A stretch of DNA of 55,029 bases from an uncultured bacterium (GTDB taxonomy: Bacteria; Bacillota; Clostridia; Christensenellales; Pumilibacteraceae), in NCBI GenBank assembly GCA_949744905.1, contig CATKCE010000060.1:1-55029 (forward strand), in the 5' to 3' direction. Position numbers and translations under genes: made by a program. Positions within the stretch are counted from its first letter, which is position 1. Each line of letters opens with the position of its first letter. The notes beneath the pieces are model-generated. The model did no database searches. It had not been told where the DNA came from and saw only the letters and a list, made by a program, of their open reading frames with translations. Shown here one piece after another: positions 1,986 to 46,645 of the stretch.

Positions 1986-2014
1986 ATTATATCACGGATT
2001 TACCGAAAACGCAA
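1986..2014 (-). promoter_or_regulatory. Promoter of recF
   Basis: TTGCGT (2009-2014), 17-base spacer, extended -10 TGATATAAT with TATAAT at 1986-1991, all on the minus strand. It lies at the very end of the upstream 1223-aa gene, overlapping its last codons, so recF has its own transcription start. Confidence 0.75.
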
Positions 2015-7244: not shown

Positions 7245-10200
7245 ACCTCAGCCCCCTTATCGTTATATGCGCCCGCCGACGCTTCCAAGCGTTTCTTTTT
7301 GCGGTACTGCACAAACATCACCGCCGCAGCAGCCGACGCGACCGCCGCCGCTCCGCCTACCGAGCCCATGACTATACCGAATACGGTGTTCACTCCCACT
7401 ACTTTCCACTTAAACGTCACCGGATCGGTAGAGCCGTCCGCCCATTCGTAATTGTCGGGATCGAGCAGGCTCACAGTCGCGCTAAACGTTCCGCCGTAGC
7501 CCGAACGGTTGCCCTCTATCCGCATGACGTCGCCGTCGAAACCTTCGGGGAAATATTCCAGCACCTTTCCGTTCACCATAAGCAGACTGTCGTTATGCAC
7601 GGGTTTATCCAGCTTTTTGCGTGCGACCGTCCACGTGAGCACCGCGTCGCCGTTTTCGTCGGTAGTCGCGCCCGCCCAGCTGTAATTCGTTTTGTCTCTC
7701 AATACGAGTTTTACGGTGTACGTGCCCGCGTTTACCGCATGCACCTCCAAAGAGTTGCCGTTAAGATTGGATACTCCGTCGTAAAGTATCTGCATTATAG
7801 ACGCGTCGAAGCCGTTTACAAAGGCTTTAAGCGTTTCGCCGGTGAACACGTCGTTGCGTCCGTCGCCGGAGGTGATTATACCGAGCGTCGGCGCCGCGTA
7901 CTCTTTTTGCAATATCGAGAAAGACGCGGCTCCGGTTGCTCCCGAGAAATTCGCGGTGGCGGGTATAGTCACCGTCACGGTGTAAACTCCCGCCGACGAG
8001 GGGATACCGTCCACTACCGCGCCGTTACGGTAATACGTAAACACGTATGTCGACGGGTCGCACGGGAACAAGGTTTCGACAACAGGAGAATTTTTACCGC
8101 GGTCGTACTCTCCGTATATCCAGTTTGCCACCGACAATCCGTTAACTATGTTTGTGCCCGGAGTTACGGCAAACGTAAAACTGCGTTCCGCGCCTTCTAC
8201 AAGTTCCCAACGATTGTTCGCGGCGTCTTTTATTCGTATGGTAACCGTATATTCGCCGACGTCCACCGCGTCGCCGATCCATCCGGGCGTGACCGTAAAC
8301 TCACTGTCGTCGTAACCGCCGTAATCTATCGTCGGCGCGTTGTGCGCTTTACCGTCGTAAACTACGTCTGATAATTTTATGTCCGAGTAACTGTATATCC
8401 GCTTTGTTACGGTAAACGCGTAATCGGCTCTGCCGGTGAGCGTATAATTGCCGCTGTTTGCGCCCGTCAGCGACACCGAAACATTGTACTCTCCCGCATT
8501 GCCCGGCATTGCGGAAAGAGCGGCTCCGGCCTGAGTAGTGTAAGAGTATTTCAGCATATCCAAAACGTTTTGGTCGCTAACCGTGATTTGTCCTCCGCCG
8601 GTAACGTCGTAAAGAACGATAACGCGCGCCGCCGCGACCGAGCCGTATTGTCCGCCGCCCTCGAATCCGCCTATACGAAGTAAGCGCGGCGACACGGTAT
8701 ATATGCCGGTAGTAAACGTGACTATATAATTGCCGTTGCCGGATACCGCGGTGATAGAATAGCTCCCCGCGTCAAGCGTCTGTCCGTCGAACGCTCCGCT
8801 AAGCCCCAAAGTAATCTTCAACGACTCTTTGTCTATTCCCACAGGCACGCTGACGGCAATGTCGGAAAGGTCGGCAGCCGCCGTAAACGGCGATACGCTG
8901 TACGGCTTGCCGCCGCCCGATACCGTGACTTCTATCGACTTTCTGTTTACGGTAAACGTGCCGGTACGCGACACGATTACGTAATTCGGAACGCTCACGC
9001 CGATCACCGCGCCGTCTTTCATAATAAGCTCGATCGCATGCGATCCCGCGGAAAGCGTATCGTCTATTTTAAGAGTGTAACCCACCTTGCTGTAGTCGTC
9101 CGGCTCGGGACGCGTGTTTATCTCGGCGCCCACCCATCCTTCGTAATTATATGTAAGCGTCTTTCCTTCCGGCTCGCCGTAAGTCATAGTTCCGCCAACC
9201 GTTACGTACAGCGTCGCGGGGTCGACCGTTACCGTAGAGTACGCGGTATCGCCGGTGTAGTTTCCTAGCGGGTCGTCCGAGCTCACCGCTTTTACCCAAT
9301 AAGTTCCGGCGCCGACCACGCCGTCTGTCCAGCCGTCTGCATGATCGCCGGGATCTCCTCCCGCTACAGCCGGCCGATACGAATAAGCGATATACGCGCC
9401 GAAGCGAGCGTCGCCCGAACGCTTGGGAGTCTCGCCGTGCGTTATACGCTGCGCAACAAGCCCGCTTATAGCCGCGACGCCTTTGTTTACCGTCCACACG
9501 GCTTCGTAAGCGTCGCCTGCCGCGGTAACACCGTCCGGCAGGTCCGAAGTATCCCAAACGTAGTTTGCGGATACCAGACTGTATCTTATCGTCTTGTTTC
9601 CTGCGCCGACCGTACCGAGTTGCACGCCGCCCAGCACAGGCAGAGTCGCCGAGCCGTCCATTGCGACGGAGATAACTGCGGTATCGACTTTTATCGTAAG
9701 AGTAAGAGCGTTGCCGTTATATGTGTCGTTTTGTTCCGCGCCGGAAGACGTAAGCGTAAACGTAGGAACTTTTACCGACGCCGGCAAAATCTTAAACACT
9801 CTGTACGCGCTCTGGTTGGTATCGGCGTACAACGCGCGCACTATATACACGCCCGCGTCTGTCTCGCCGTTTATTGCAACGTTGAAAGCGCCCGCTCCGA
9901 GTTCGAGCAATACCGAGCCTGCGTTCACATTGGTAAACTGCATGTATTCCGACGGTATCTCGTCGCCATACCCGTATGCGTAAACGCGCGCGTACGAAAT
10001 CGATATTCCGCCCGAACCGCCGTCCACCGAATACACCGGAGCATTCACCTCCTGCTTATACGTCCAACCCTCGATAGACAACATTATATTGACCGAATCG
10101 GTGGTGACCACAAGCACCAGCGTCACGCTTGCTCCCGAACCGTTAACGTTGCTCAACGTATAGTTTTTGGCCGCGTCGGAGTTGAGCTGTACGGTAGTGT

Positions 10201-13200
10201 AATATCTGCCGGTATATCCTCCCGAAACCAGCGCGGTAAAGCGCAGTTCGCTGGAAGCGGTATCGATAACGTAAGTCTTTCCGGACCCGCCGAGAGCGGC
10301 GTCGGTCACGGGCTCGGTGAGCGCGTGTCCGTTTTCTTCCCACTGGCGGTAAAACCCGCCCACGGAGTCGTCGGCTATGCCCATGATCGAAGAATAAAAG
10401 TTCTCTATCGTGCGCGTCTCGTCTACGTTTACCGAATCCGACGTCCAGTTGACGCTCGCGTTATCCCAACGGATAACTATCTCCTGTTTTTGGATATTAT
10501 ACGAATAAACGCGTTTATTCATGGAATTATCCGCAAAGACATAATTGCCGCCAAGCGTCACGGTAACGGTGTAATCGCCTGCAATGTTGGGCGTAGAGCT
10601 TGCGCCCGAGTACGCCAGCGTATATTTGTTTTTGGCGGCGGCGTCGGTCTTCGCGAATTTCGGCAGATACGCGTCGGCTATCTCAACGTTGTCGGGATCG
10701 GCAAAGACGAATTGCGCGTGCAGAGTCTTTCCGCTCTTTCCTCCGTTGATATCTATTTCTCCGCCGTTGTAAACGGGATTGTTCACGCGCGTCGCGGTTA
10801 TCGGACGCGGCGATACGGTAAAGCCCGTGGGCGCGGCGTAAACAACTTTGTAGTTGTTGAGCGTAAGCGTGCTTACAAGTCCTCCGCCGGCCGTTCCCGC
10901 GGCGTCCGGAGAATACGACACGGTATAATTGCCGGCCCCGCTCTCCCACGGCACGTAAGACGTCTGCGCCGTAAGATACGCCGCGTGTCCGCTGTGGTCG
11001 GCGCCGATATCTTTTCCCGCCCAGCCGGAATACGACGGAGTTACCGACACGGCGTCGCCGTATCTTACTCCCGGTTTTACTTCCGCTTTTACCGTAAGGG
11101 TGGCCTGTTCTATCTCAAACGAAGCAAAAGCGAGCGCGCCGTAATCGAATGAAACGTCGTAATTACTACCGTTTTGAGCGTAACGCGGCGTCATAACGTA
11201 TCCGCCCGCCGTAACGTCCACCGCGTTGCCGGGCAACGTGAGAGACAATCCGAGCACGCTCGACGCGTCGCCGGAACTTCCGTTCCAGCCGTCGGGCAAA
11301 GTAAAGTACGCGTTGAAACGGGCGATCACGTCGGCTGTCAAGGCGTTTTGATGCGCCATGTAGTCGCCCGCATAAATCGTCTTTGCGCCTGCGTTGGTTC
11401 CGTTACTGCCGTGCACCGTAACTATGACGGCGCGTTGCCGTACCGTAAGGTTAAAACTTATGGTGGGAACTGTAAAGTTGAGCGCCCTCACTCCCGAAGC
11501 GGTAACGGTGCACACCGTACCCGCGGAAGTTTTAACGTTGTAGTCACGCGACGCGAAAGCGTAATCAAGCGATATTTTGTCGCCCTCGGCATTAAGAAGA
11601 TAAGTCTCGGATATCGTTTTATATCCGTCGTACGCGTCGGAACCGGCAATATCGGGATACGTTGTATCGGGCACGCGGTAGCTTATTACGTACCCTTTTC
11701 CGTCGTTAAAAAGAAGCTCCGCGGTCGCCGCCTCGCGTGAAGCGGGAAGCGCCGTACCGTATCTTATGGTAACTCCGGATACCGTTATCCCCAGAGTGGC
11801 TCTCGAAATACTGAATTGCGCCGCGCCTTCGCTAACCGTGTAATTTTCGCTTGTGCCGGCGTAAGTGAAAGTCGCCTCGTACGTTCCCGCATCCACAGGC
11901 TTGCCGTCGAGTTCGGTATCAGCCGCCGTGCCGTCCGGCTCGGCTACTTTGCGGTACGTCGCGTTAAAGGTAAGTCCCGTAAGGTTTGACGTGGCGATAG
12001 TTATTTCCTTGGGCTTGCCGTCGTACACAGGACTTTTTGGCACGTTGTAAGTGACTACTACCGGCGCGCTCTCTATAACGTAAGTTCCCGCGCTGTAAGT
12101 CGCGCCCCCGCCTATGTATTTGCCGATATCCGCCGCAAGCACGTCGTCGTCGCCAAGCTCGGCGGCCCACGAGCAGTTTTCAAACGCGACCGCGTAATTT
12201 ACTGCGTGGGAGTCATCGCTCCACACCGCGTACACTGCGTAAACGCCCTTGTCGGCGGTGCGCTTGCCCTCGGAAGAGAACGTAGCCTTGGTATGCAACA
12301 CTACCGGCGTCTGTCCGTTGAAATATCCGTACAAGCTGCCGTCGGCAATATCCAAAGTAGGAGTATCGTAGCTTTCTATCGTTCCTTTATCGTACAAATC
12401 GTAATGGTTGAAACTTGTTCCGTCTTTTTTGTTTTTGTCTATCACCAAGGTAACGGAGCGTTTTTCCACAGTCAGCTTTCCGTCGATAAATACGAACTCG
12501 TAATTGTCCGAAGCGTATCCGTTATCGTCGTCGATAGTGATACGGTGCGCCGAGCCCGCGTCGTTACCCGCTTTGTAAGGATCGGAAGACGCGACTTTGT
12601 TGGTAACGAATTCAAAGTTCTTTTTTACCGACGTATTGCGTCCGTCGAATACAGTCGTATCGGTCTCGCCGTATTTGTAACCAGATATATCCGCCGCATG
12701 GTTAGAGTGGTGTTCGGCGTCGGCGGTAAATATATGTTCCTCACCGTATACCACCGTAGAATCGTGTGCCGTAACTGTGAGTTCGGCTTTGGCGACGCGG
12801 AACACGCGCGTTTCGCTTACCGCGGCGTAATCGTTGCCCGACGCCGGCATAGTGTAAGTCACAGCGTAATATCCGGCGCCGAATTTGTTGCGCGAAAATA
12901 CCGTGTCCAACACGTCGCCGAGCGTAGTCTCTTCGTCCAGCCCCGCGTTTGCAACGTATTCGGCAACGTAGCTTACGCTTTCCGTACCCGCCGAAACGGT
13001 CTTACGGTAAAACTCCACCGATACGTATATCTTATTGCCGGAAGTATTTCCGTTAAAGCCGTCGAAACGCGTCGCAGGCGTTACGAATCCCGTCATGCCG
13101 GCGGTATATCCGCCGTATATCCAGGCTTCTCCGCCCACTCCCTCGGTCTTGGCGAATGCGGCAGCCCGATCGCCGTTTATTACGGTAACGGCTTTATCGT

Positions 13201-16200
13201 TGTAATCGAACGATTCCGTAAACGCGTTTTCCGACGGGAGCACTTCAACGCATATCTTATCGACAAAAGTTTTGTGGTTCTCGGCGGAGATACGGAAGAA
13301 CACGTAATACGTGTCGGCGCGGAACACGCCCGGTATATCCGAACTTCCGCTTACATCCCAATCGAAACCGACAGGCAACGCGCTATTCTTTGAGAGATAA
13401 TACAAAACATCCGCCCTTATGCCGTCCTGCGTGTCCGCGTCGAGCGCGGCTTTCAGGGAAGGCCTTATGGTATCGTCGTAAGAAAGAGTCTGCTTTGAAG
13501 TATCGGGCAGCAGTTTATAATCGGCGGCGGACACGACGTACACCGCGTCGGTATTGTATTTTATGTCGTACTTGTCGCCGGCGAGCGAACGCAAAGTTAT
13601 GGCGTATCCGTCGGAGTTCACCTTACCGGTAGCGATCGTTATTCCGTCTTTTATCTCGGTATCGAGAGAGTTTACCTCTATCGCGAATATCCTGTCGTAA
13701 GAGCTGTACGCTCCGAAGAAATGCGTCGCGCCGTCGAGTCCGTACGACGACACCGCCGCGGATACGGTAAATCCGGCATTCTCGGTGTTGAGCGCGGCAA
13801 GCTCGGAATAGTACGGTCTGCTCTGCGAAAGTATCGCGACGGTTATCTCGCGGCGCACAACGTTGAGAGAGCCTACTCCGCCGGCAAACACATAGTTGCC
13901 CCATGCAAGACCGTTGGGCGCAAACGTTATGTCGCGCCTGCCGATATCTCCCGGCGTATAATCGGTGGCATACTCGAATTCCCCGCCGGTCACGGCTATG
14001 TCGGAAGTATTGTAGAATTTGTTTTTGTCGTCAAACTTGAAGTCGCCGTCGTCTATCTTATATATGCCGTTTTCGCGGCGCAGATTATCGTTGCCGGCAA
14101 GATACATGTTTCCTTTGCCGTCGTAATTTACGGGGCTGTTCTCTCCGTAAAATATCGTAAGTTCCACGCGGACGTTTAGCGTAGCGGGACGTACGAAATA
14201 TTCGTAAGTACTCTCCGCAAAAGTAATATCGTAATTGGCTTTACCGTTTTCGGTAACGGTGATATCGAAGAAATATCTGTTTGCGGCGGTGGTTATGTCG
14301 GAATCGGAAGCAATGCCGTTTACGCTTAGCGCAAACACCTGCCCCGCATCCACTCCGTCGGGCAGACCTTTTCCGCCAACGGCATAAAAATCTTTCTTGC
14401 CGGATATATCCGCGGGGTCGTCGCCGTAAACGTGTTCTCTGTCCGATTCCGCCGCGGTAACCGTCACTTCTATCGCGCGCTTTTCGACGACGAATTTGCC
14501 CTCGCCGTCCTCGGGCACTACGAGAACGTAGTTGCGCGAATACTCGTTGTCCTTAAGTTCCGGCGTTAAAACATACCCCGCCGCGTTTGCAGGAAGAAGC
14601 GCGTCGCTACCGGTATAGCCGCCGCGGTCAAGCGATACGGTCAGGCAGTCGAGCGCAGAGTCGCCGCCCGCAAAGCCTTCGCCGTCTTTCACCTCGACTT
14701 CGAACCATCCGGATACGTCGGGCAAACCGTCGCCGTAAGTATGCCGATAAGTCTTAGAGCCGTCGGGAGCTTTAACGCTTACCGTAAGCGTACGGCGCAA
14801 TACGATAAGTTCGTTTTCGAGCAGATAACCGCCGTTATCTCTTATATCAAAGTTATCGGCGCGGTAAACGAGTCCGCCGGTCGCCTCGCCGTCGGCGATA
14901 GTCTCCACGTACACTTTGTGCGCTATCACGTTACCCTGCGCGTCGGTATTGACTTTGCTTACGTGCGTAACGCTCAATACAGGAAGTAAAAGCGTTTGTC
15001 CCGGACGCTGCGGCGCGGATACCACGGTAGCCGTAAGTCCTCTGGATACGCCGTCGTACACGAACGAAAATTTGCCGTCGGCATTCGTAACTCCTTCTTC
15101 CGCGCCCCATTTCACAGTTACGGAAGCGGCGCGGATATCAAGCGCGTTTACCGTAAGGTCCTTGTGTATGGCGGCGGTCTCGAAGTCAGATTCATCGGAA
15201 AAAGTCCATTCGACCGTCACGTCGTATTCGCCTTTGTTCCAAGGAAGATGGTTTACAAGGTCTCCGCTGTCCGAGCCGGATTTCATGCCAGAGTCATAAG
15301 TAAACACGCTCACGCTGTTGTCGGCTTTATCGGTAAAAGTCAACGTAAGAGTCACGTGCCCCTTATCCCACTCGGCAATAAGGGTGTCTTTGGAGCCCTC
15401 GGTCTCGTCTTTTATAGTGAAAACGTCGTTAAGAGAAATTGCGCCGGACGCCTTTACCGTATCGCCGAACGTATACGGCGCGAATTCGTAAGTCAGCCCG
15501 AGCACTCTGTTGGTCACGGCATAATGGATGGTAATATAAACTCCGTCCTCGCCGTAATCCGTCTTATAGTTCTGCGCCGACGCGCTGCCCGAAACCAATA
15601 TCTGGTTCGTGTTGCTTACGTACAGATACGCGCCGTCGGCTTCCGCCCATATATAGTTGAGCGGATTCTTATCCGGCGTGTCCCCCGCCTTTACCGCATA
15701 GCGTACATAATATCTTCCGCGTTCCGATATGGCTTCGTCGTCGGGTATAGCGGTGTAAGACACAGATCCGCCGCTCACGGTAACGCTGCCGTAAGACACG
15801 GTAAGTTCGGGCAAGCCGTTTACTGAGAGAGTCTTTCTTTCGTTCATTCCCGCTTCCCATTCGGAAATGCGCCAATCCGACCATTGCTCTTTGGTCCATG
15901 AAGGATCGCCGAGTTTAAGCGTCTTGCGGTTTACCGTTATCCCGATCTCGCAAGTCTCAGTTCCCTCGACGTAACCGCCGCCGGCATTGCCGTCCGCCCA
16001 ACGGTAATTTTCAAAATCGTTTAATGTAAACGTCAGTTTATACAGACCGGCGTCGGTATACTCAAAAGTAAAGCCGGAACTCGTAAACGTAAACGCCGCG
16101 CCAGCCGCAACCTCGTTGCCGAGATTGTTCCTGCCGGACACTTCGGCGACACCGCCCGCACGCGCCGCGAGCACCGCCCAATCGGTGGAGGCTGTAAACT

Positions 16201-19200
16201 CTATCGTCTTTCCGTCGCCGAAAGTTACCGCGCTTACGGTAAGTTCGGGTCTTGACACAACGGCTTTATTTATCGTAAAGTCCGTCGAACGCGTCTCGCT
16301 CTTAATAGTGTAATTCCGCGATACGTCTCCGTTCTCCATAAGCGCAACTGCATGGACGCGGTAAACGCCGGCTTTGCGGACAAACGTTACGCCGCTGTCG
16401 GAAACGTAATTTTCGTTTTTATCGATACAGAACGAGACGGTAAGCGCGTCGTCGCCGCACACGTCGGACGGTCGCGCCGCAACTGCGGGACTTTTATCCG
16501 AGTCGTCGTAAGTATGCGCAAGCGCGCTCCAATCGAGGTCTATCGGTTTTGCCGACACGATAAACGTGACCGTCTGCGGCAAAACAGAACCGTTTTCGCT
16601 TCCGTCGTCCCAAACATAATTCGCACCGGGCGTTATTTCTATAGTATAGCTGTCGGCATACAGCACCTGTAACGAGCTGTCCCCGTTTACGGTATACGTC
16701 ACATGTCCTTCGTAATTAAAAAGATATTTTTCGATAGTGAAAACGCTTCCGCGGTACACGGCGGTAAACACTTGACCCGAACGGACAACGCCGTCCGCCG
16801 ACATCTGCGGCGTGGACGCGGCAACCGCCGGAAGTTCCAGTTTAGCCTTTCCTATCCTGTAAGACGCGTGGTACAACGCGGGCAGAACGTAGTCCGACGC
16901 GACGCCGTTTCCGGCGACCGTTATACCGGTCACGTATACGTAATACGTTCCCGCCGCGTTCGCGCCGTCGGCATGTACGAACGCATTGAACTTATCGGCT
17001 TCGGTAATATCGGAACGTCCGTCGTATTCGGAATACACCTCTGTTTTAAGCGATACCGCATCGCCGTCCGCCGTACCGTTTGCACCCGCTACGGGCTTTA
17101 CGCGCGCCATTCCCTCGCTGAAAGGATATTCCAAAAGCGCGGGAGCCGACGCGTTACCGGAGGTCCAGACGACCGTCAGCGTTACGGGGTCGAGAATATA
17201 CGTGAGCGTAACTTCGCCGTCGCCGTCAGAGTCCAATGCGCCCGACCACGCGTGGTTGTTATCGGTAAACGACACTTTGACGGTGTAAGTATCGGCGTGC
17301 AATACGCTTATAGTTCCGTTGCCGTCGTCTGCGACCGACTGCGTCGCGCCTTCCGCCGAGTACGACATGAACCCGCCGTCGTAGCCAGCAATGGAAAATA
17401 CGTTGCTTTTTCCGTTATAAGAAGCTCTTTCCGCCGAAAGTCCCAGCGACGATATCACTTTTTTCATCACCGTGAACTCGCGGTACGCCGTATCGCCCAC
17501 GGTATAGTCTCCGTCCTCATCGTGCTCCGAATTCAACTCGGTAGTGTAGCCGACGCGATAAGTCCCCGCCTGCCACTCCGCAAATTCCGCAAGAGTATGG
17601 TCGGAATAATCTTCCCACGTTCCGCTTTCGTTCCTTATCTGGAAAACCGGACCGCCGGCCAAAGGATAAAATCCGTCGGGATACGCGAAATCGACGGTAA
17701 GGTTTCCCTCGCCGTATATAAATTCGGTATCCGAAAGTTTTACCGCCATGGTAAAGTCGGGCACAGTGTAAGGCGTAACGGTAAACACCGTGCTTATAAC
17801 GCTCTTGCCGTCTTCGACGGAAATAATATCGTTTTCGTTATCCGAAGTCCATACGTAATTTTTATTGTTGAGCGTAAGTTTGATGCCGTAATCGCCCGCA
17901 TGGCGTATCGCTTTTTCGGAATTGACGCCGCTCTGCTCCACCGAAATTATGGCGTCCGCTTTGTCTCCCTCGATATCCTCCGCAAGAAAAGCCGAGCGGT
18001 CTATATCGATAAGTTCTTCGGGAGTCCATGTAGTGCGCGAATAGGCGCGCGGAGGCGCTACGGCCCCCGTCTTTACGGGTCTCGGCGCGATGGTCAAAGT
18101 AGCGCGGTTAGAGTCGAAAGTCGTACTGCTGCGGTAACCGTCTGTGTCCTCGGTAGTTGCGATAACGTAATACGTGCCGACAACGGTGGGACGGACAAGC
18201 GACGGATCGCCGTAAGTATACGTCTTACCGCTCTCGTCGGTAAATCCGTAATATTTGAACGTGGGCGTCGGCGCGACCGAAGAGTCGAGAGCCACGCTGC
18301 TGCCCAAAGGATAGCACTTTACCGCCAAAGACGGTTCTTCGCCGTATATGATATTTACGGTCCTTTCGGCCATACGCACGTCCAATAAACCTTTGTTAAC
18401 GCGTATGCGGTAACTCTTTGAATATTCCACGCGGTTGTCCGCCGTATACCAGCCGTAATCTCCCGCGGCTCCGTCTGTCAGCGCGAACGTGACGGTAAAC
18501 TCGCTGCCGCGCAAAAACACCACGGCTCCGTTTTCGTACTTGGCGAAATCACATTCGGAAGAATCGAGCGAAACGTTGCCTGCGGCGTAAGAATAAGTCG
18601 CTATAACAGCGCTCTCGCCGGTAAGTCTGTCGGTCACGGTAACGGTAAGTCCGGTTTTGAGGTCGTTTTCCCAGTCTATGCCGGTAACGGGTTTTATCGT
18701 GCCGCCCTCGCTGTAATTTACCGAACGTTCGTCCACAACGGGCACAACGTGCGGCGCCGGAACAACGCTTATATCAAAGCGGTTTTCCTTGCCGCCGTAA
18801 GATACCGTAACGCGGTTTACGTTTGTGCTGCGCGAAGGAACGTTCACTCTGCCGACGCCGCTCGTAAGCCTTTTGGTGCCCGCGTAAAAAGTAACCGTGC
18901 AGTCGTCTGCGTAATCGGCAAGGTCTATCTGGTTTTCGATTATTTCCGGATCGTCCTGTCCCGGCACGTCAACGCTGAATTCCGCAGTGGCGTAAAGACC
19001 GGTAAAATCAAATGGTTGATTCGCAACTTGCGTCACCGCCGTACCGTACACGCCGGTGACTCCGGCGTAAGGTTTGTATACGATATTTTCGAATCCGACT
19101 TCGGCGGAAATGGATCGGTCTTTGTCGCAAACAGTCACCGTTTTAGAGTAAATATCGTTTTCCGACAGCGGAAACTGGTTTTTAGAGGGATACAGCGAGC

Positions 19201-20422
19201 CGTCTATCACGTAATCGGTTATGACCTCGGTATCGCGGTCGTTGTATGTCACGGTCACGTCGAAGTCGCCGTGCGCGCCGGAATTGAGCATGGTAGCGGA
19301 AGTAAGATTGAGAGCGTCGCCCTTGTAAACGGCGTCGAGTTTTACGGCTTTGCGGTCTTCGAACGGCAGAGTCACCCGGTCGTTGTAAACTTCCGTGCCA
19401 ACGGTGATCTTGACCGATATCGAATTGTTGTTGTCGTTGTACTGTACGTTTTCTATCTCGCCGGTATAGTTGGTGTTAAGCTCGGGTATATATCCGCTCG
19501 AACCCGCGCTTCCCAGCAAAACGCGTGAATTTTCAAGCACCGCGTAAACCATTATCCTGCTTTGAACGTCGGTACCGTACATGCCTTTTACAAATGTTCC
19601 GTAATACGCCGAATCTTCTTTATCGGGAAAAACTTTATCGGCGGGATCGCGGTAGTATCCGTCCAAAACCGTCAGAGCGGGGTCGGCGGCAACGAATATA
19701 CCCTGTATTTTCGCGGCGACGACTTTTACGTTTTCGAGTTTGCCGGACGCTTCGCCGAGCGTAACGTTTACCGTGACCGTACGCCCCGCCGCAAGCGATT
19801 GGGAAAAGGACGCCGAATACAATTCTTTATTGCCGACGGGAAAACTTTCTTCGCCCGCCACGCCCGTAACGCTTATCAGATCTTTTACGCTCTCCTCGTC
19901 CGCGTCCGCGCCGATCTGGGTCGGACCCGTAACGGTAAGAGAATCGTAAACCGGCAAACTTTCGACTACGAGCAACTGGTCAATGTGGTATGTAAGCAAC
20001 GAACATTCAAGGTCGAGCGATATAGCGCCGGATGCCGTTCCGTCCTCGTTCAGCACCGGAACGGGGCTGTTGTCGTCCAATACTTTGCCGTTTATCGAAA
20101 CGGTGAATTCCGACGTCTGTAATCGGGCGAAGCCGCCGTCGTACGTGCCGATAACGCGCAGATTCTTTTTAAGATCCAGACCGGTGGTCACGTCTTTGTA
20201 CACGGCCAAACCGTCGGGGACCGTCACCGAAATGTCGGTATATGTTTTAAGCGGACGTATAACGGCTTCGCTCTCTCTTTGCACATACCCCGCATTGCCG
20301 GCATACGAGTAAACGGCGTCGGTAACAGCAACGCCTCCCGTCGCAAGAAACAAACAGCCCAACACGGCAAAAACAGTCGCAAAAAATCTCTTTCTCGGCG
20401 ACCTTACACGTAACGATACCAT
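7241..20422 (-). CDS. Giant MBG-repeat cell-surface protein, 4393 aa
   Basis: A single 13.2-kb gene. The ORF track begins at a TTG, but the ATG at 20422 (MVSLRVRSPRKRFF) has GGGAGG nine bases upstream and opens a normal signal peptide (RKRFFATVFAVLGCLFLATG). The body is a long string of beta-rich repeats with the hallmarks of MBG/YDG-type domains: YGE or YGD openings, AGTYTV or ADTYTVKVS strands, NY.W turns and PAxLxVTV or KAELTVTA junctions. These are typical of extended stalks of adhesins. The C terminus has a hydrophobic span (VFGIVMGSVGGAAAVASAAAAVMF) followed by QYRKKKRLEA, so it is held by a membrane anchor rather than an LPXTG sortase motif. Binding target unknown. It is cotranscribed with the coupled 474-aa membrane protein. 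Confidence 0.9.
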   Translation of the reverse strand: MVSLRVRSPRKRFFATVFAVLGCLFLATGGVAVTDAVYSYAGNAGYVQRESEAVIRPLKTYTDISVTVPDGLAVYKDVTTGLDLKKNLRVIGTYDGGFARLQTSEFTVSINGKVLDDNSPVPVLNEDGTASGAISLDLECSLLTYHIDQLLVVESLPVYDSLTVTGPTQIGADADEESVKDLISVTGVAGEESFPVGNKELYSASFSQSLAAGRTVTVNVTLGEASGKLENVKVVAAKIQGIFVAADPALTVLDGYYRDPADKVFPDKEDSAYYGTFVKGMYGTDVQSRIMVYAVLENSRVLLGSAGSSGYIPELNTNYTGEIENVQYNDNNNSISVKITVGTEVYNDRVTLPFEDRKAVKLDAVYKGDALNLTSATMLNSGAHGDFDVTVTYNDRDTEVITDYVIDGSLYPSKNQFPLSENDIYSKTVTVCDKDRSISAEVGFENIVYKPYAGVTGVYGTAVTQVANQPFDFTGLYATAEFSVDVPGQDDPEIIENQIDLADYADDCTVTFYAGTKRLTSGVGRVNVPSRSTNVNRVTVSYGGKENRFDISVVPAPHVVPVVDERSVNYSEGGTIKPVTGIDWENDLKTGLTVTVTDRLTGESAVIATYSYAAGNVSLDSSECDFAKYENGAVVFLRGSEFTVTFALTDGAAGDYGWYTADNRVEYSKSYRIRVNKGLLDVRMAERTVNIIYGEEPSLAVKCYPLGSSVALDSSVAPTPTFKYYGFTDESGKTYTYGDPSLVRPTVVGTYYVIATTEDTDGYRSSTTFDSNRATLTIAPRPVKTGAVAPPRAYSRTTWTPEELIDIDRSAFLAEDIEGDKADAIISVEQSGVNSEKAIRHAGDYGIKLTLNNKNYVWTSDNENDIISVEDGKSVISTVFTVTPYTVPDFTMAVKLSDTEFIYGEGNLTVDFAYPDGFYPLAGGPVFQIRNESGTWEDYSDHTLAEFAEWQAGTYRVGYTTELNSEHDEDGDYTVGDTAYREFTVMKKVISSLGLSAERASYNGKSNVFSIAGYDGGFMSYSAEGATQSVADDGNGTISVLHADTYTVKVSFTDNNHAWSGALDSDGDGEVTLTYILDPVTLTVVWTSGNASAPALLEYPFSEGMARVKPVAGANGTADGDAVSLKTEVYSEYDGRSDITEADKFNAFVHADGANAAGTYYVYVTGITVAGNGVASDYVLPALYHASYRIGKAKLELPAVAASTPQMSADGVVRSGQVFTAVYRGSVFTIEKYLFNYEGHVTYTVNGDSSLQVLYADSYTIEITPGANYVWDDGSENGSVLPQTVTFIVSAKPIDLDWSALAHTYDDSDKSPAVAARPSDVCGDDALTVSFCIDKNENYVSDSGVTFVRKAGVYRVHAVALMENGDVSRNYTIKSETRSTDFTINKAVVSRPELTVSAVTFGDGKTIEFTASTDWAVLAARAGGVAEVSGRNNLGNEVAAGAAFTFTSSGFTFEYTDAGLYKLTFTLNDFENYRWADGNAGGGYVEGTETCEIGITVNRKTLKLGDPSWTKEQWSDWRISEWEAGMNERKTLSVNGLPELTVSYGSVTVSGGSVSYTAIPDDEAISERGRYYVRYAVKAGDTPDKNPLNYIWAEADGAYLYVSNTNQILVSGSASAQNYKTDYGEDGVYITIHYAVTNRVLGLTYEFAPYTFGDTVKASGAISLNDVFTIKDETEGSKDTLIAEWDKGHVTLTLTFTDKADNSVSVFTYDSGMKSGSDSGDLVNHLPWNKGEYDVTVEWTFSDESDFETAAIHKDLTVNALDIRAASVTVKWGAEEGVTNADGKFSFVYDGVSRGLTATVVSAPQRPGQTLLLPVLSVTHVSKVNTDAQGNVIAHKVYVETIADGEATGGLVYRADNFDIRDNGGYLLENELIVLRRTLTVSVKAPDGSKTYRHTYGDGLPDVSGWFEVEVKDGEGFAGGDSALDCLTVSLDRGGYTGSDALLPANAAGYVLTPELKDNEYSRNYVLVVPEDGEGKFVVEKRAIEVTVTAAESDREHVYGDDPADISGKKDFYAVGGKGLPDGVDAGQVFALSVNGIASDSDITTAANRYFFDITVTENGKANYDITFAESTYEYFVRPATLNVRVELTIFYGENSPVNYDGKGNMYLAGNDNLRRENGIYKIDDGDFKFDDKNKFYNTSDIAVTGGEFEYATDYTPGDIGRRDITFAPNGLAWGNYVFAGGVGSLNVVRREITVAILSQSRPYYSELAALNTENAGFTVSAAVSSYGLDGATHFFGAYSSYDRIFAIEVNSLDTEIKDGITIATGKVNSDGYAITLRSLAGDKYDIKYNTDAVYVVSAADYKLLPDTSKQTLSYDDTIRPSLKAALDADTQDGIRADVLYYLSKNSALPVGFDWDVSGSSDIPGVFRADTYYVFFRISAENHKTFVDKICVEVLPSENAFTESFDYNDKAVTVINGDRAAAFAKTEGVGGEAWIYGGYTAGMTGFVTPATRFDGFNGNTSGNKIYVSVEFYRKTVSAGTESVSYVAEYVANAGLDEETTLGDVLDTVFSRNKFGAGYYAVTYTMPASGNDYAAVSETRVFRVAKAELTVTAHDSTVVYGEEHIFTADAEHHSNHAADISGYKYGETDTTVFDGRNTSVKKNFEFVTNKVASSDPYKAGNDAGSAHRITIDDDNGYASDNYEFVFIDGKLTVEKRSVTLVIDKNKKDGTSFNHYDLYDKGTIESYDTPTLDIADGSLYGYFNGQTPVVLHTKATFSSEGKRTADKGVYAVYAVWSDDSHAVNYAVAFENCSWAAELGDDDVLAADIGKYIGGGATYSAGTYVIESAPVVVTYNVPKSPVYDGKPKEITIATSNLTGLTFNATYRKVAEPDGTAADTELDGKPVDAGTYEATFTYAGTSENYTVSEGAAQFSISRATLGITVSGVTIRYGTALPASREAATAELLFNDGKGYVISYRVPDTTYPDIAGSDAYDGYKTISETYLLNAEGDKISLDYAFASRDYNVKTSAGTVCTVTASGVRALNFTVPTISFNLTVRQRAVIVTVHGSNGTNAGAKTIYAGDYMAHQNALTADVIARFNAYFTLPDGWNGSSGDASSVLGLSLTLPGNAVDVTAGGYVMTPRYAQNGSNYDVSFDYGALAFASFEIEQATLTVKAEVKPGVRYGDAVSVTPSYSGWAGKDIGADHSGHAAYLTAQTSYVPWESGAGNYTVSYSPDAAGTAGGGLVSTLTLNNYKVVYAAPTGFTVSPRPITATRVNNPVYNGGEIDINGGKSGKTLHAQFVFADPDNVEIADAYLPKFAKTDAAAKNKYTLAYSGASSTPNIAGDYTVTVTLGGNYVFADNSMNKRVYSYNIQKQEIVIRWDNASVNWTSDSVNVDETRTIENFYSSIMGIADDSVGGFYRQWEENGHALTEPVTDAALGGSGKTYVIDTASSELRFTALVSGGYTGRYYTTVQLNSDAAKNYTLSNVNGSGASVTLVLVVTTDSVNIMLSIEGWTYKQEVNAPVYSVDGGSGGISISYARVYAYGYGDEIPSEYMQFTNVNAGSVLLELGAGAFNVAINGETDAGVYIVRALYADTNQSAYRVFKILPASVKVPTFTLTSSGAEQNDTYNGNALTLTIKVDTAVISVAMDGSATLPVLGGVQLGTVGAGNKTIRYSLVSANYVWDTSDLPDGVTAAGDAYEAVWTVNKGVAAISGLVAQRITHGETPKRSGDARFGAYIAYSYRPAVAGGDPGDHADGWTDGVVGAGTYWVKAVSSDDPLGNYTGDTAYSTVTVDPATLYVTVGGTMTYGEPEGKTLTYNYEGWVGAEINTRPEPDDYSKVGYTLKIDDTLSAGSHAIELIMKDGAVIGVSVPNYVIVSRTGTFTVNRKSIEVTVSGGGKPYSVSPFTAAADLSDIAVSVPVGIDKESLKITLGLSGAFDGQTLDAGSYSITAVSGNGNYIVTFTTGIYTVSPRLLRIGGFEGGGQYGSVAAARVIVLYDVTGGGQITVSDQNVLDMLKYSYTTQAGAALSAMPGNAGEYNVSVSLTGANSGNYTLTGRADYAFTVTKRIYSYSDIKLSDVVYDGKAHNAPTIDYGGYDDSEFTVTPGWIGDAVDVGEYTVTIRIKDAANNRWELVEGAERSFTFAVTPGTNIVNGLSVANWIYGEYDRGKNSPVVETLFPCDPSTYVFTYYRNGAVVDGIPSSAGVYTVTVTIPATANFSGATGAASFSILQKEYAAPTLGIITSGDGRNDVFTGETLKAFVNGFDASIMQILYDGVSNLNGNSLEVHAVNAGTYTVKLVLRDKTNYSWAGATTDENGDAVLTWTVARKKLDKPVHNDSLLMVNGKVLEYFPEGFDGDVMRIEGNRSGYGGTFSATVSLLDPDNYEWADGSTDPVTFKWKVVGVNTVFGIVMGSVGGAAAVASAAAAVMFVQYRKKKRLEASAGAYNDKGAEV

Positions 20423-20595
20423 ATTCCCGATCCTCCCCGCCGGACGTCCGTGCAAAACAGATTCCGCACGCGTCCGACTTATCCGCGCCGTAAAACACGG
20501 CCGGTATTTTTACAACGTCGTCCCGCAAAACGCTTCAAACGGAACATACGCGGTAATTATCGTTGTTTTCTACTGCACTGCGGCGTACCGCCGTA

Positions 20596-25505: not shown

Positions 25506-26261
25506 TCAAAGCCTTACGCATACCCCTTTTCCGCGCAAATACTCTTTAAGCTCTTTTATCGGTATCCTGTTAAAGTGGAATACCGATGCCGCCAACGCCG
25601 CGTCGGCATGCGCGCGATCGAACGCTTCGAAAAAGTGCCGCTTTTCGCCCGCGCCGCCGCTTGCTATCACCGGTATTTTCACGCTGTCGGAAACTGTTCC
25701 GGTAAGCTCGGTCTCGTAGCCGATATTGGTACCGTCGCGGTCTATGCTTGTAAGCAGGATCTCGCCGGCGCCGAGACTTTCGGCGCGCACCGCCCACTCG
25801 AGAGCGTCGAGTTCCTCTCTTTTTCTGCCGCCCGCGCTGTATACCCTGTAACCGTTTTCTTCGCGCAAAGCGTCTATGGCTACCACCACGCACTGCCGCC
25901 CGAATTTGTCGGCGAGTTCGCTTATCAGCCGAGGGTCGCGTATCGCCGCCGTGTTTACCGACACCTTGTCCGCGCCCGCCCGCAGTATAGCGGTGGCGTC
26001 GCGTACCGAGCGTATGCCGCCGCCCACGCAAAGCGGTACGGCAAGCCGTTCCGCAACGCGTGAAACGGTTTCCGCCACCGTTTCCGCCCCGCGCACCGAC
26101 GCCGTTATATCCAAAAATACTATTTCGTCGGCGCCGGCCCGTTCGTAAGCCGCCGCGACTTGCGCGGGGTCGCCCGCGTCGGTAAGGTTGACAAAATTGA
26201 CTCCCTTTACCACTCTGCCGTCCTTTACGTCAAGGCACGGTATTATCCTCTTTGCAGTCAT
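25506..26261 (-). CDS. hisF: Imidazole glycerol phosphate synthase, cyclase subunit HisF
   Basis: A 251-aa TIM barrel that uses ammonia made by HisH to convert PRFAR to imidazole glycerol phosphate and AICAR (EC 4.3.2.10). The start is ATG 26261 ([15 protein letters not shown]), which places the general acid at Asp11 as in the family; the track's earlier start adds seven unsupported residues. The second catalytic aspartate lies in [10 protein letters not shown]. Phosphate-binding glycine loops CVGGGIRS and VIASGGAGE are intact. It overlaps hisH by four bases. No other histidine-pathway gene is adjacent, although a histidinol-phosphatase lies 24 kb away. Confidence 0.95.
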
Positions 26262-26893
26262 GTTTCCGTCCCCGCTCCGCATACAGCCGCGAAATTTTTC
26301 AAAATCTTACGTCCCACGTCCGAACTTTTTTCCGGATGGAATTGCGTCCCGAACACGTTGCCGCTCTCTACCGCCGCGTCGAACGTTTCGCCGTACTCCG
26401 CCGTAGCGCAGGCTTTACCGTTACTGTGCGCCCCGAACGAATGAACAAAGTATACGTAATCGCCGTCGCTTACGCCTTGCATGAGCCGTCCTTTGCATCC
26501 GCCGAGTCCGGTCCAGCCCATGTGCGGCACTTTTAATCCGCAGGTACGCAAACGCGTGACTATACCGCTTACAAGTCCGAGCCCCTCGGCGCCGGGATTT
26601 TCTTCGCTGCCGGAAAACAGCAACTGCATCCCGAGGCATATCCCGAGAAGCGGCACTCCCGCGCCGGCGTATTCTTTTAACGCGTCCGTAAATCCGGCGT
26701 CCCGCAAACTGCGCGCCGCGTACCCGAAGGCTCCGACTCCCGGGAGCAATATGCCGGCGCAACCTTTAAGTTCGGCGGGAGAACAGGCTACGTAAGCCGC
26801 CGCACCGACGCGTTTGAGTCCGCACAAAACCGAGTGGAGATTGCCTGCGCCGTAATCTACGACCGCTATTTTGTCGTTAGTGGATACATTCAT
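26258..26893 (-). CDS. hisH: Imidazole glycerol phosphate synthase, glutaminase subunit HisH
   Basis: A 211-aa class-I glutamine amidotransferase. The nucleophile elbow [10 protein letters not shown], the oxyanion region LLPGVGAFG, and the catalytic His-Glu pair QFHPEKS are all present, as is the HisF-contact stretch KVPHMGWTG. It supplies ammonia to HisF through the barrel. I start it at the ATG at 26893 ([18 protein letters not shown]) instead of 26953, because a strong promoter (TTGACT-N18-TATAAT) lies between the two. The -10 box ends six bases before this ATG and there is no Shine-Dalgarno, so the mRNA is probably leaderless. It is the first gene of the hisHF-sbcDC operon and divergent from lgt. 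Confidence 0.94.
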
Positions 26894-26899
26894 GATTAC

Positions 26900-26929
26900 A
26901 TTATAACCTTTTACGGCTACGCCAGTCAA
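26900..26929 (-). promoter_or_regulatory. hisH promoter, predicted leaderless transcript
   Basis: Minus strand TTGACT (26924-26929), 18-base spacer, TATAAT (26900-26905), then six bases to the hisH ATG. The first transcribed base should be at or within one base of the A of the start codon. Confidence 0.8.
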
Positions 26930-26946
26930 TTTTTTAGCCCACAATA

Positions 26947-26975
26947 TTGACAAATCGCCGCGCCGGTGTTATCAT
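26947..26975 (+). promoter_or_regulatory. lgt promoter, predicted leaderless transcript
   Basis: TTGACA (26947-26952), 17-base spacer, TATCAT (26970-26975), then six bases to the lgt ATG at 26982. No Shine-Dalgarno is present. It lies back to back with the hisH promoter, with 17 bases between the two -35 boxes. Confidence 0.8.
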
Positions 26976-26981
26976 TTAATC

Positions 26982-27878
26982 ATGTATCCGTATCTTTTCG
27001 GCTCCGAAGCTTTGTCCATGTACGGCATAATGCTTGCGGCGGGCCTTTTGGCGGCGATATTGCTGTTCAAATTTATTTGCAACAAAAAGAAGGTGGACGA
27101 TAAAACATACACCTTTTATTCTCTGCTTGCCATCATAAGCATAGCCGCGGGCTTGGGCGGCGCCGCGCTTTTCCAATCGATATACGATATGATAGCCAAA
27201 GCCGTCGCCGGAGAAAAAGTCAGCTTCGGATATTCGGGGCTCACGTTTATGGGCGGACTAATAACCGGCGTTATAGTGTTTGTCGCCAGCGCCGCTATAT
27301 TCGCAAAAGGTCAAGTCAAACGCAACTTCTTCGAATGCGCTTCTTACGGCGCGCCGTGCATAGTTCTCGGACATGCCTTCGGAAGATTCGGCTGCTTTTT
27401 CGCAGGATGCTGTTACGGAAAAGTCACCGACAGTTTTCTCGGCATCCGTTTCCCCGGCATGTCGCAAAAAGTTTATCCCACGCAGTTGTTCGAAGCGCTG
27501 TTTCTCGTGTTGCTGTTCGCGGCGATGATGGTGCTTTTATTCCGATTCAAAAACTATAAGATACAATTGCCGCTGTACGGCATGGGTTATGCCGTATTCC
27601 GCTTTTTGATAGAATACGTGCGCGGCGACGACCGCGGAGCGTTTATTCCGGGACTCAGCCCCAGCCAAGCCCAGGTCATACTTCTGTTTGCCGCGGCGGC
27701 GGCCGTTGCGGTACTCGTATTCAAATTCGATATCGTGCCTTTCGCAAAAGCCGCGGATACGGTTCCCGCAGCCGACCGGCAGGATACGGCGTCCGACACG
27801 GCGGACGATACGATAGCAGCAAACGAAACGGACGTTTCGTCGCCGCAAAACGATTCGTCCGACGAAAACGACGCGTAA
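26982..27878 (+). CDS. lgt: Prolipoprotein diacylglyceryl transferase
   Basis: A 298-aa polytopic enzyme that moves diacylglycerol from phosphatidylglycerol to the lipobox cysteine of prolipoproteins (EC 2.5.1.145). The Lgt signature is clear: GHAFGRFGCFFAGCCYG, preceded by YSGLTFMGGL. The later PTQLFEALFL and RFLIEYVRGDDRG motifs include the essential arginine region. About seven hydrophobic spans are visible. The last 40 residues form an acidic Asp/Ser/Thr-rich tail not needed by the family. The ATG at 26982 lies six bases after a -10 box with no Shine-Dalgarno, so translation should be leaderless. A terminator follows about 35 bases after the stop. Confidence 0.93.
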   Translation: MYPYLFGSEALSMYGIMLAAGLLAAILLFKFICNKKKVDDKTYTFYSLLAIISIAAGLGGAALFQSIYDMIAKAVAGEKVSFGYSGLTFMGGLITGVIVFVASAAIFAKGQVKRNFFECASYGAPCIVLGHAFGRFGCFFAGCCYGKVTDSFLGIRFPGMSQKVYPTQLFEALFLVLLFAAMMVLLFRFKNYKIQLPLYGMGYAVFRFLIEYVRGDDRGAFIPGLSPSQAQVILLFAAAAAVAVLVFKFDIVPFAKAADTVPAADRQDTASDTADDTIAANETDVSSPQNDSSDENDA

Positions 27879-30315: not shown

Positions 30316-30344
30316 TTGCAAAAACCGCAGGCGTGTGGTATAAT
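30316..30344 (+). promoter_or_regulatory. Promoter of the ArsR-type regulator, predicted leaderless transcript
   Basis: TTGCAA (30316-30321), 17-base spacer, TATAAT (30339-30344), then six bases to the ATG at 30351. The -10 box lies inside the longer ORF proposed by the track, which argues against the upstream start. Confidence 0.8.
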
Positions 30345-30350
30345 TTCTAC

Positions 30351-31235
30351 ATGAAACATTTTTCCGCGCTGATAGACGCATATTCGATGTGCGAAGCGAT
30401 AGGCAGCCAGGTGCGTATGGACATACTGTCCGAGATACTCGAACACCGCTCGATAACGCTCAGCGACCTTGCCAAAAATCTGCATTTGACCAACGGCGCG
30501 CTCACTCCGCACATAAAAAAACTGGAAAGCGCGGGGCTTATACGCGTCGCCGAGGAGCCCGGCAAACGCGGAACCGCAAAGCTGTGTTCTATCGCGCTCG
30601 ACAAGATAGTCATAGACGTGGCATCGTTTCTGCCGGAAAAAGCGCAGTCGTTCGTCATACCCGTGGGACAATACCGCTCGGCTTCGCCGCGCCGCCGCTG
30701 CGCCCTCGTGGGCGCAAAGGGCTTTATCGGCGAGACCGACGACCCCCGTTACTTTACTTATCCCGAACACGCCGACTGCATAGGGCTATGGCTTTCCGAC
30801 GGATCGGTAACGTACACCCTGCCTTCGCCTCCGTCGGGCGGTCCGGCAATATCGGAAATACGCTTCCACTTCGAGATAAGCGCGGTGCCGTCTGGCGGCG
30901 ATATTCTGCCCGGACAAATATCCGCATATATCGACGACGTTCCGCTCGGCGCCGCCACGCTCCCCGCCGAAAACCGCGACCGCAAAGGCAGTCTCAACCC
31001 CGACTGGTACGATACAGTATATCCTCAGTACGGAAGCCTGAAGACGCTTTCGGTAAACGCGCGCGGCTGTTACTGGGACGGAATAAAGATATCCGAAGTT
31101 ACTCTCGCCCGACTCAGCGAACTCAAAACTTTTACGCTCGCGTCGAAATCGGGTTTCGCTCTGTTCGGAAAAAACTTCGGCGACTATTCGGTAGACCTCG
31201 GCTATACATTGGAATACGACGACGCCAAACTGTAA
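30351..31235 (+). CDS. ArsR-type winged-helix regulator with C-terminal beta-rich domain
   Basis: A 294-aa protein. Residues 1-75 are a winged helix of the ArsR class (MCEAIGSQVRMDILSEIL, ITLSDLAKNLHLTNGALTPHIKKLESAGLI, then a wing with EPGKRGTAKLCSI). The remaining 200 residues are unlike ordinary ArsR sensors. They are beta-rich with a carbohydrate- or ligand-binding-like appearance (FTYPEHADCIGLWLSDG, RFHFEISA, DWYDTVYPQYG, YWDGIKISE), so the signal is probably a bound small molecule. I choose ATG 30351, not the GTG at 30333, because the -10 box covers the latter. It is divergent from the kinase–YitT operon, its most likely target. A strong terminator follows. Confidence 0.85.
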   Translation: MKHFSALIDAYSMCEAIGSQVRMDILSEILEHRSITLSDLAKNLHLTNGALTPHIKKLESAGLIRVAEEPGKRGTAKLCSIALDKIVIDVASFLPEKAQSFVIPVGQYRSASPRRRCALVGAKGFIGETDDPRYFTYPEHADCIGLWLSDGSVTYTLPSPPSGGPAISEIRFHFEISAVPSGGDILPGQISAYIDDVPLGAATLPAENRDRKGSLNPDWYDTVYPQYGSLKTLSVNARGCYWDGIKISEVTLARLSELKTFTLASKSGFALFGKNFGDYSVDLGYTLEYDDAKL

Positions 31236-39006: not shown

Positions 39007-39035
39007 TTGACACCCGACGCGGATTTTGATATAAT
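39007..39035 (+). promoter_or_regulatory. Promoter of the Fic-like gene, predicted leaderless transcript
   Basis: TTGACA (39007-39012), 17-base spacer, extended -10 TGATATAAT with TATAAT at 39030-39035, then six bases to the ATG at 39042. No Shine-Dalgarno. This is close to a consensus sigma-A promoter. Confidence 0.85.
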
Positions 39036-39041
39036 GTATGC

Positions 39042-40058
39042 ATGCAAGTATACGATTGTAAGTCCGCCGCTCTGAGCGCCGCGGCAAATATATCCGCCGA
39101 CGACGCGGCTCCCGCCAAAAGCATGGTGACCGCGGCCATCGCGTACCTCGGAGGAAAAACGGATAAAGATACGTTCCGCAAAAAATGCGCCAAAAACCAG
39201 CTTTACGCGCGTCTGGTCATTTTTTCCGAACTGAAAATTTCCGATTACGACGCCGACACTCTCTGCGCCGTACATAAAGCGTTGTTCGAGCCGCGCCCCA
39301 AGTGCGGCGAACTGCGCGGCGACGAACTTACAATAGCGGGAGGAAGTTGCACCGATCCCAAACTTTTGCGCGGATCGCTCAAAAACGTATTGAGCAAACT
39401 CAACCAGACTCAGGGAGCGCCGACGCTCGGCAAATCTGACTTCGCCGCACAGCTTTGCTGCTATATGCGCGAACTCATCATTCTTTCGCCTTTCGCCTAC
39501 GGCAATGCCGTAACGCGCAGAGCGTATATTCAGAACTTTTGTTTGAGCCGCGGATTTTTGCTCAATTTTTCTTCGGTTAGCAAAAAAGAGTTAAATAGCG
39601 CCGAACGCGAAGCTTTTGCCGGCGACGACCCTCAACCGCTTTTTACCCTGCTCACGAAGTGTCTCAGCTACAAACAGGAAGAAGCGGCAAAACCGTCCAA
39701 AAACAAAAAATCACCGCGCGTGCCCACAGCTACCGCGCAGACTCAGAAACAAGTGCAAAAACCCGGGCGAGAGATCGCCGCCACAGCAATAAAACGCGTA
39801 GACAATCCGGCGCCTGCAGCCGCGCGTCCGCGTCCCGCTCCCCCGGCTACGATAAACGTTCCCGCACCCGTACAGTCGGCGAAACCCGCCGAACAGTACT
39901 CGAACGCGGTATCGGTGCGCTCAAAGCCGCCGTACACCGATAACGCCGGACAGGAAGCGTCCGCCGACCTGATACGCGAACTGCGCGAGATACAAAAAAC
40001 GCTCGCCTTTTTATCGGCGCGCGTCTCGGAAATAATAAGATCGATGGAAAACGAATAA
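39042..40058 (+). CDS. Fic-like protein with degenerate active site and Pro/Ala-rich C-terminal region
   Basis: A 338-aa protein. Residues about 55-200 follow the Fic-domain layout: a helix with DYDADTLCAVHKALFE, then GELRGDELTIAGGSCTDP (Fic: aGxxRxxxv.IgG), and a core helix with YMRELIILSPFAYGNAVTRRAYIQNF. The Fic catalytic motif HPFxxGNGRxxR has become SPFAYGNAVTRR, so the catalytic histidine and the NGR anion-binding part are gone. AMP transfer is therefore not expected. After residue about 215 comes a Lys/Pro/Ala-rich disordered stretch and a short C-terminal helix (LIRELREIQKTLAFLSARVSEII), perhaps for oligomerisation. The assignment rests on pattern matching by eye. It is transcribed alone and ends in a shared terminator. 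Confidence 0.7.
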   Translation: MQVYDCKSAALSAAANISADDAAPAKSMVTAAIAYLGGKTDKDTFRKKCAKNQLYARLVIFSELKISDYDADTLCAVHKALFEPRPKCGELRGDELTIAGGSCTDPKLLRGSLKNVLSKLNQTQGAPTLGKSDFAAQLCCYMRELIILSPFAYGNAVTRRAYIQNFCLSRGFLLNFSSVSKKELNSAEREAFAGDDPQPLFTLLTKCLSYKQEEAAKPSKNKKSPRVPTATAQTQKQVQKPGREIAATAIKRVDNPAPAAARPRPAPPATINVPAPVQSAKPAEQYSNAVSVRSKPPYTDNAGQEASADLIRELREIQKTLAFLSARVSEIIRSMENE

Positions 40059-43156: not shown

Positions 43157-43579
43157 TTACGCCGACGCCGAAGCGTTCGCTTTTTTCTTAAACGAGCCGG
43201 TGCACATCAAACTCAGCACCATGCATGCTACCATACATATAATAGTGAGGATATAAGCAAATCCGAAAGAATTGCCGTCTATGCCCATAAACACGTTTAC
43301 GATATAGCCCGCCTGGTTGTATCCCCACAAGGCAAAAGCAAGGAAATACACGCCGAATGCCGCTATCTTCATGAGACTGTTGTTGTAAAAAAGCGTTCCG
43401 GCGTTCAACAGCACCGCCACTATAAGCGGCACGTACACTATCGCGCTCACCGTAGTCTCGGTCATGTAAGACTTGTCGGTGCCCGATACGAGATAACATA
43501 TCATAGCGACCAATCCCAAAGCCGTGGCAACTATATTCAGGATATAACCCACACCCTTGTTTTTGAAAAATTCTTTCAT
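43157..43579 (-). CDS. Four-TM membrane protein of unknown function
   Basis: A 140-aa protein that is almost wholly hydrophobic, with four membrane spans (about residues 10-33, 43-62, 68-88 and 105-127) separated by short loops, and a KKKANASASA basic tail. I recognise no family motif. Its ATG overlaps the stop of the GH3 gene by four bases, so the two are translationally coupled. This makes a membrane partner, chaperone or transport role for the anchored glycosidase plausible, though this is inference only. A strong terminator follows. Confidence 0.8.
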   Translation of the reverse strand: MKEFFKNKGVGYILNIVATALGLVAMICYLVSGTDKSYMTETTVSAIVYVPLIVAVLLNAGTLFYNNSLMKIAAFGVYFLAFALWGYNQAGYIVNVFMGIDGNSFGFAYILTIICMVACMVLSLMCTGSFKKKANASASA

Positions 43580-46575: not shown

Positions 46576-46616
46576 TGTCCTCTCCTTATTCTTTTTTGCC
46601 GTACGGCTATGTAAGG

Positions 46617-46645
46617 AGTATAACAACCCGACTTTATACTTTCAA
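46617..46645 (-). promoter_or_regulatory. Promoter of the GH3 operon
   Basis: Minus strand TTGAAA (46640-46645), 17-base spacer, TATACT (46617-46622), located just after the upstream histidine kinase gene. The GH3 operon can therefore be expressed apart from the two-component genes. Confidence 0.7.

Follow-up and report, generated by a model that had tools for sequence, protein, structure and literature searches.

Predicted leaderless hisH and lgt transcripts at a divergent promoter pair in an uncultured member of the Pumilibacteraceae

Leaderless initiation itself is well known: in leaderless mRNAs of other bacteria, the 5'-terminal AUG is taken by the ribosome without Shine-Dalgarno (SD) pairing. 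Deinococcus is a genus with established leaderless mRNAs, and the Clostridia are regarded as SD-dominated, with very few of them. In a statement of PMC9581028 that cites GeneMarkS-2, roughly one bacterial species in five is predicted to have leaderless genes. For cultured Clostridia, members of the same class as the bacterium studied here, leaderless starts are described as rare, at 2–4% of transcription start sites (TSSs) or mRNAs: 2–3% in a Clostridia TSS map (PMC9045289), 4% of TSSs, potentially leaderless, in C. phytofermentans, where a ribosome-binding site (RBS) is usually kept (PMC5171806), 15 genes in C. difficile (PMC7438776), and about 2% in C. autoethanogenum (PMC6873888). The claim of an earlier, sequence-only reading of this DNA that the mode is uncommon in characterised Clostridia agrees with these published maps (2–4% or less). 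Compared with them, the frequency found here is only somewhat higher (about 5%), and the difference lies in the lack of an SD sequence and in the conservation across the family.

In Deinococcus-Thermus (Life Sci Alliance 2025, PMC12340547), a -10 box a few bases before the ATG likewise acts as the leaderless promoter, for about 30% of ORFs, and in D. deserti our own analysis likewise put this box six bases ahead of the start; in the present genome, in contrast, the box is a fuller TATAAT, usually with a -35 element at 17 nt, about 5% of genes are involved, and most others are strongly SD-led. The bacteria-wide scan of that paper used complete reference genomes and omitted species not clearly classified, and thus the Pumilibacteraceae clade was probably not covered. 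Predictions in Firmicutes (Zheng 2011, PMC3160421) share the TATAAT-type box just before the start, with a mean of 4.2% of genes (range 2.4–16.6%), but those cases are concentrated in Lactobacillales and Mycoplasma, and the main text names no Clostridia. Mycobacterium tuberculosis (PMC3898074) shares a TSS at the start codon (predicted in our case), the lack of SD, and use as a regular mode, whereas it differs in the proportion of genes (22–26%), in a TANNNT box without conserved -35, and in the prominence of toxin-antitoxin pairs. In a literature search mostly outside subscription journals, no report was found that treats leaderless initiation in this clade as regular; the initiation mode is already known, and the novelty lies in its conserved use by these uncultured bacteria.

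The hisH-lgt gap and its promoters

The window (the whole stretch of 55,029 nucleotides that was analysed) lies in contig 60 of genome GCA_949744905.1, which comprises 1.8 Mb in 141 contigs and is 92% complete. Within it, 88 bases separate hisH (minus strand, start at 26893) from an lgt homologue (plus strand, start at 26982), with two back-to-back promoters inside, the only ones in this gap. The features are the following:

25506..26282, minus: hisF (TIGR00735), second gene of the hisHF unit, predicted to have a leaderless start
26258..26893, minus: hisH, imidazole glycerol phosphate synthase subunit HisH (TIGR01855, 206 bits, cut-off 105), overlapping hisF
26891..26893, minus: hisH ATG, predicted mRNA 5' end, with six bases (26899-26894) between the -10 hexamer and the ATG
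26900..26905, minus: -10 hexamer of the hisH promoter, TATAAT, 18 nt from the -35
26924..26929, minus: -35 hexamer of the hisH promoter, TTGACT, from sequence
26947..26952, plus: -35 hexamer of the lgt promoter, TTGACA, from sequence, conserved across the family
26970..26975, plus: -10 hexamer of the lgt promoter, TATCAT, 17 nt from the -35, from sequence and family comparison
26982..26984, plus: lgt ATG, predicted mRNA 5' end, with six bases (26976-26981) between the -10 hexamer and the ATG
26982..27878, plus: lgt homologue, prolipoprotein diacylglyceryl transferase family (PF01790, 124 bits)
30316..30353, plus: leaderless-type promoter TTGCAA-N17-TATAAT-N6-ATG (gap ttctac) of a winged-HTH (MarR/ArsR-like) gene, ORF 30351-31235
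39007..39044, plus: leaderless-type promoter TTGACA-N17-TATAAT-N6-ATG (gap gtatgc) of a Fic/DOC-family gene, ORF 39042-40058

Direct reading of the sequence gave TTGACT-N18-TATAAT-gtaatc-ATG for hisH on the minus strand and TTGACA-N17-TATCAT-ttaatc-ATG for lgt on the plus strand. Both promoters match the sigma-A/sigma-70 pattern (TTGACA and TATAAT with a 16–18 nt spacer), that of hisH scoring 18.5 of 20, and an SD-like purine run, looked for upstream of the two ATGs, was absent at both. The arrangement described by the sequence-only reading, with back-to-back promoters, -10 boxes ending six bases before the ATG and no SD, was thus confirmed, and the two further genes for which it had claimed the same geometry were found, with ATGs at 30351 and 39042 and each -35 at 17 nt.

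The conserved HisH domain begins at residue 9, and the hisH ATG is the sole in-frame ATG ahead of it. The window lgt falls below the TIGR00544 cut-off, which indicates a divergent Lgt paralogue; its closest relatives in named genomes belong to metagenome-assembled genomes (MAGs) of uncultured gut Clostridia (43–49% identity at best). A second, canonical lgt, above the TIGR00544 cut-off, was observed in contig 47 of the same genome (L082:15237-16361), and its promoter is also of the leaderless type (TTGACA...TATAAT-agaaca-ATG), so that both Lgt paralogues share this arrangement. Elsewhere in the window, a 4,404-codon open frame (7241-20455, minus) encodes an uncharacterised giant protein with neither Pfam match nor tandem repeats, adjoining two more large frames, at 1992-5663 and 5820-7244, that likewise have no Pfam match, and a glycoside hydrolase family 3 protein (43576-46626, minus) has its C-terminal domain first, with GH3_C (122-376) ahead of the GH3 N-terminal domain (726-903).

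RNA polymerase with sigma-A initiates about seven bases past the -10 box. The two divergent, housekeeping (sigma-A-type) promoters would accordingly start transcription at the A of the ATG or no more than about 3 bases from it, and the ribosome, probably as a 70S or IF2-assisted complex, would recognise the 5'-terminal AUG by the leaderless route. Such a divergent layout would also save space, both transcription units being accommodated within 88 bp.

Spacing between -10 box and start codon across the genome

In the whole genome, counted independently of gene calling, TATAAT-N6-ATG occurs 61 times and the N7 form 34 times, versus a mean of 21.1 per spacing at N12–19 (N6 excess over N12–19, p = 7.6e-11). 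The background was taken from other spacings of the same pattern, which replaced a reversed-pattern control judged weak. Run in this way, the genome-wide count proposed by the sequence-only reading has a peak at six bases.

Gene calling covered 645 kb (about 36% of the genome) and used a coding model, with starts chosen by coding and SD signals and no promoter model. Full promoters (score of at least 17 of 20) were located at spacing 6 in 16 genes, at 7 in 4, at 9–22 in 8, and at 23–60 in 81. The distribution is bimodal, with a peak at 6–7, few cases at 8–22, and a broad leadered class beyond, a scarcity that two modes predict, in which a leader is either absent or of sufficient length to hold an SD. 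Other samples also showed slightly more promoters at spacing 9, resembling the lgt loci L184, L192, and L203. Internal ATG codons of the same genes showed a promoter at spacing 6 in only 3 of 3,451 cases (threshold 16), and a mixture model learning box and spacing from a flat start assigned 38 of 527 starts to spacing 6. Moreover, boxes at N6–7 that had been found without use of the -35 showed enrichment of this element at the right distance (mean best match of 3.52 of 6, against 2.51 in the control). Overall, a strong leaderless-type promoter was present at 26 of 517 starts (5%), and at 21 of the 303 starts (7%) with an upstream gap of at least 40 nt. Some genes lie at spacings 7–9, for which leaders of 1–3 nt are predicted, and these count against a strictly leaderless explanation.

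The first 20 stretches were drawn from contigs picked for N6 matches, and G044 and its contigs were also picked after N6 counts, the G032 stretches being free of this selection. The whole-genome counts and stretches C76-C96, not selected by matches, serve as the unbiased check; the latter contained 4 cases at N6, 3 at N7, and about 1 per other spacing, a weaker but consistent result. When the same pipeline was applied to plasmid 3 of Deinococcus deserti (300 kb), a box was learned at spacing 6 (22 of 247 starts), and no spacing peak appeared in E. coli K-12 (250 kb); for these two, the strict threshold of the promoter scan excluded too much, and the box-learning model alone is informative. In 400 kb of G035, from the same order but another family, no promoters at spacing 5–8 were found versus 48 at 23–60, which argues that the peak is no artefact of the method.

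The start model learned the SD motif aGGAGg, and 77% of the 115 leadered genes carried an SD match of at least 5, in line with the AGGAGG sites that the sequence-only reading had attributed to leadered genes, compared with 0 of 21 leaderless-type genes (p = 1.7e-10), an absence that is partly forced, since a -10 box at N6 physically fills the SD region. That the majority of genes are SD-led implies a working anti-SD. All 21 leaderless-type genes start with ATG, versus 94 of the 115 leadered ones; GTG at N6–7 occurs in a few relatives. As a possible initiator signal, a pyrimidine at position -1 was read from the alignment in 20 of 20 leaderless lgt starts; in the genome itself, its frequency did not differ significantly (16/22 vs. 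72/113, p = 0.29). A functional theme was sought among the leaderless-type genes, and none was clear in a mixed set that includes cca, glpK, cls, ruvX, an FtsQ-like POTRA gene, spoIIGA, two ECF sigma factors, an AraC regulator, a permease, and an integrase. A selected, functionally distinct group, kept leaderless (e.g., lgt) for separate translational switching, for instance under stress or with altered initiation factors, is an unlikely proposition; if true, no translation programme divided in this way would have preceded it in Clostridia.

Distribution in the family, order, and phylum

For comparison among genomes, the N6 count was divided by the mean of N12–19, a statistic in which the exact TATAAT is a crude proxy that may miss genomes with other box forms. 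The 61 Pumilibacteraceae genomes showed a median ratio of 2.0, with 59 of them above 1 and 35 individually significant after correction; pooled, they contained 2952 N6 matches against 1653 expected, and 16 of 18 genera were significant when pooled by genus. Judged from these sequences, the signature is family-wide in Pumilibacteraceae. Across the order (61 genomes in 33 families), the median was 1.2 and ten genomes were significant, a patchy pattern with signal in several families in addition to Pumilibacteraceae and none in others. Among 149 other genomes of the phylum, none was significant (median 0.79).

AT-rich upstream regions could yield TATAAT-N6-ATG by accident, and about 21 of the 61 matches in this genome are indeed expected as background from other spacings. 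Nevertheless, the p value of the excess, the 59 of 61 family genomes above 1, the 0 of 149 significant ones elsewhere in the phylum, the independent -35 enrichment, and the conservation among orthologues make this barely credible. Chance as a general account is refuted by these counts, and could still hold for single genes.

Conservation and switching of the initiation mode at single genes

Among 30 lgt loci fetched from Pumilibacteraceae, 21 belonged to the leaderless class (promoter score of at least 17 at spacing 5–8), nearly all with spacing 6. Five others (L194, L195, L200, L208, L210) showed a promoter shifted upstream together with the gain of an SD, three (L184, L192, L203) showed spacing 9 with no SD detected by eye, possibly corresponding to 2–3 nt leaders, and one was a fragment. 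Of 77 lgt loci from outside Pumilibacteraceae, 55 were SD-led and 3 leaderless-type; among these 3, L022 shares its upstream sequence with family member L202. When 20 leaderless lgt starts were compared, the bases ahead of the ATG were near random in identity, apart from base -1, the two promoter hexamers (-35 and -10), and a small number of neighbouring positions with weak conservation.

It could be argued that the true start lies downstream, at an in-frame ATG at +36 in lgt, leaving a short leader and a merely coincidental N6 match, as this ATG (codon 13) is present in the window lgt and in several orthologues. However, codons 2–12 encode a conserved MYPYLFG-type N-terminus in which variation falls mostly at third positions (identity at codon positions 1/2/3 of 0.52/0.66/0.39), a pattern right after the lgt ATG that indicates translation from it; in addition, the +36 ATG has no preceding SD, and RuvX of this genome, read from its N6 ATG, matches its Pfam model starting with residue 1. 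A downstream start is thus highly improbable.

A different possibility is that the N6 promoters are real but secondary, with upstream promoters making longer, SD-bearing transcripts, as in C. phytofermentans, where genes with potentially leaderless TSSs usually keep an RBS and a further TSS upstream (PMC5171806). An alternative promoter may exist further upstream, within the neighbouring gene, and this counts against the leaderless explanation. Nevertheless, genes with an N6 promoter lack an SD (0/21), so that a longer transcript would not help them by SD pairing, the hisH-lgt gap spans just 88 bp with these two promoters alone, and lgt loci of the family have an SD where the promoter lies upstream and none where it lies at N6, all of which renders this account quite improbable.

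Other genes were more variable. The hisH geometry was found in several other genera (e.g., L214, L215, L220, L222, L226, and, with GTG, L216 and L217), an SD was present when hisH is preceded by another his gene, and the two congeners examined (L212, L213) were not leaderless, having an upstream promoter, an SD, and a TTG start. Likewise, ruvX is leaderless-type in this genome and not in six congeners; elsewhere, it is so in a few genera (L254, L262, and, with GTG, L266 and L269) and SD-led in most. As hisH and ruvX differ between close relatives and lgt is mostly constant, genes appear to switch mode on short time scales, with lgt held. In five ruvX relatives (L251, L252, L255, L256, L258), the -10 box is followed by about 5 nt, GGAGG, and the ATG (-10 about 16 nt from the ATG), with predicted leaders of about 10 nt beginning near the SD itself. 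Short leaders of this kind may form a bridge between leaderless and SD-led modes.

From promoter elements, spacing, SD absence, enrichment, and conservation, all evident in the sequences, we infer the precise 5' end and how translation begins: the hisH and lgt mRNAs are very probably leaderless, and leaderless initiation would be a regular minority mode inherited across Pumilibacteraceae. The proposal of the sequence-only reading that the lineage uses it regularly is supported by the genome-wide peak, the family-wide signal, and the six-base spacing among orthologues, as a mode predicted from promoter geometry that would involve about 5% of genes, arise and disappear at individual genes, and be strongly retained at lgt. 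A family with common leaderless starts, conserved at single genes and switched between relatives, offers a natural series for how genes change their initiation mode, and gene finders that assume an SD may misplace the starts of such genes across a large number of gut MAGs.
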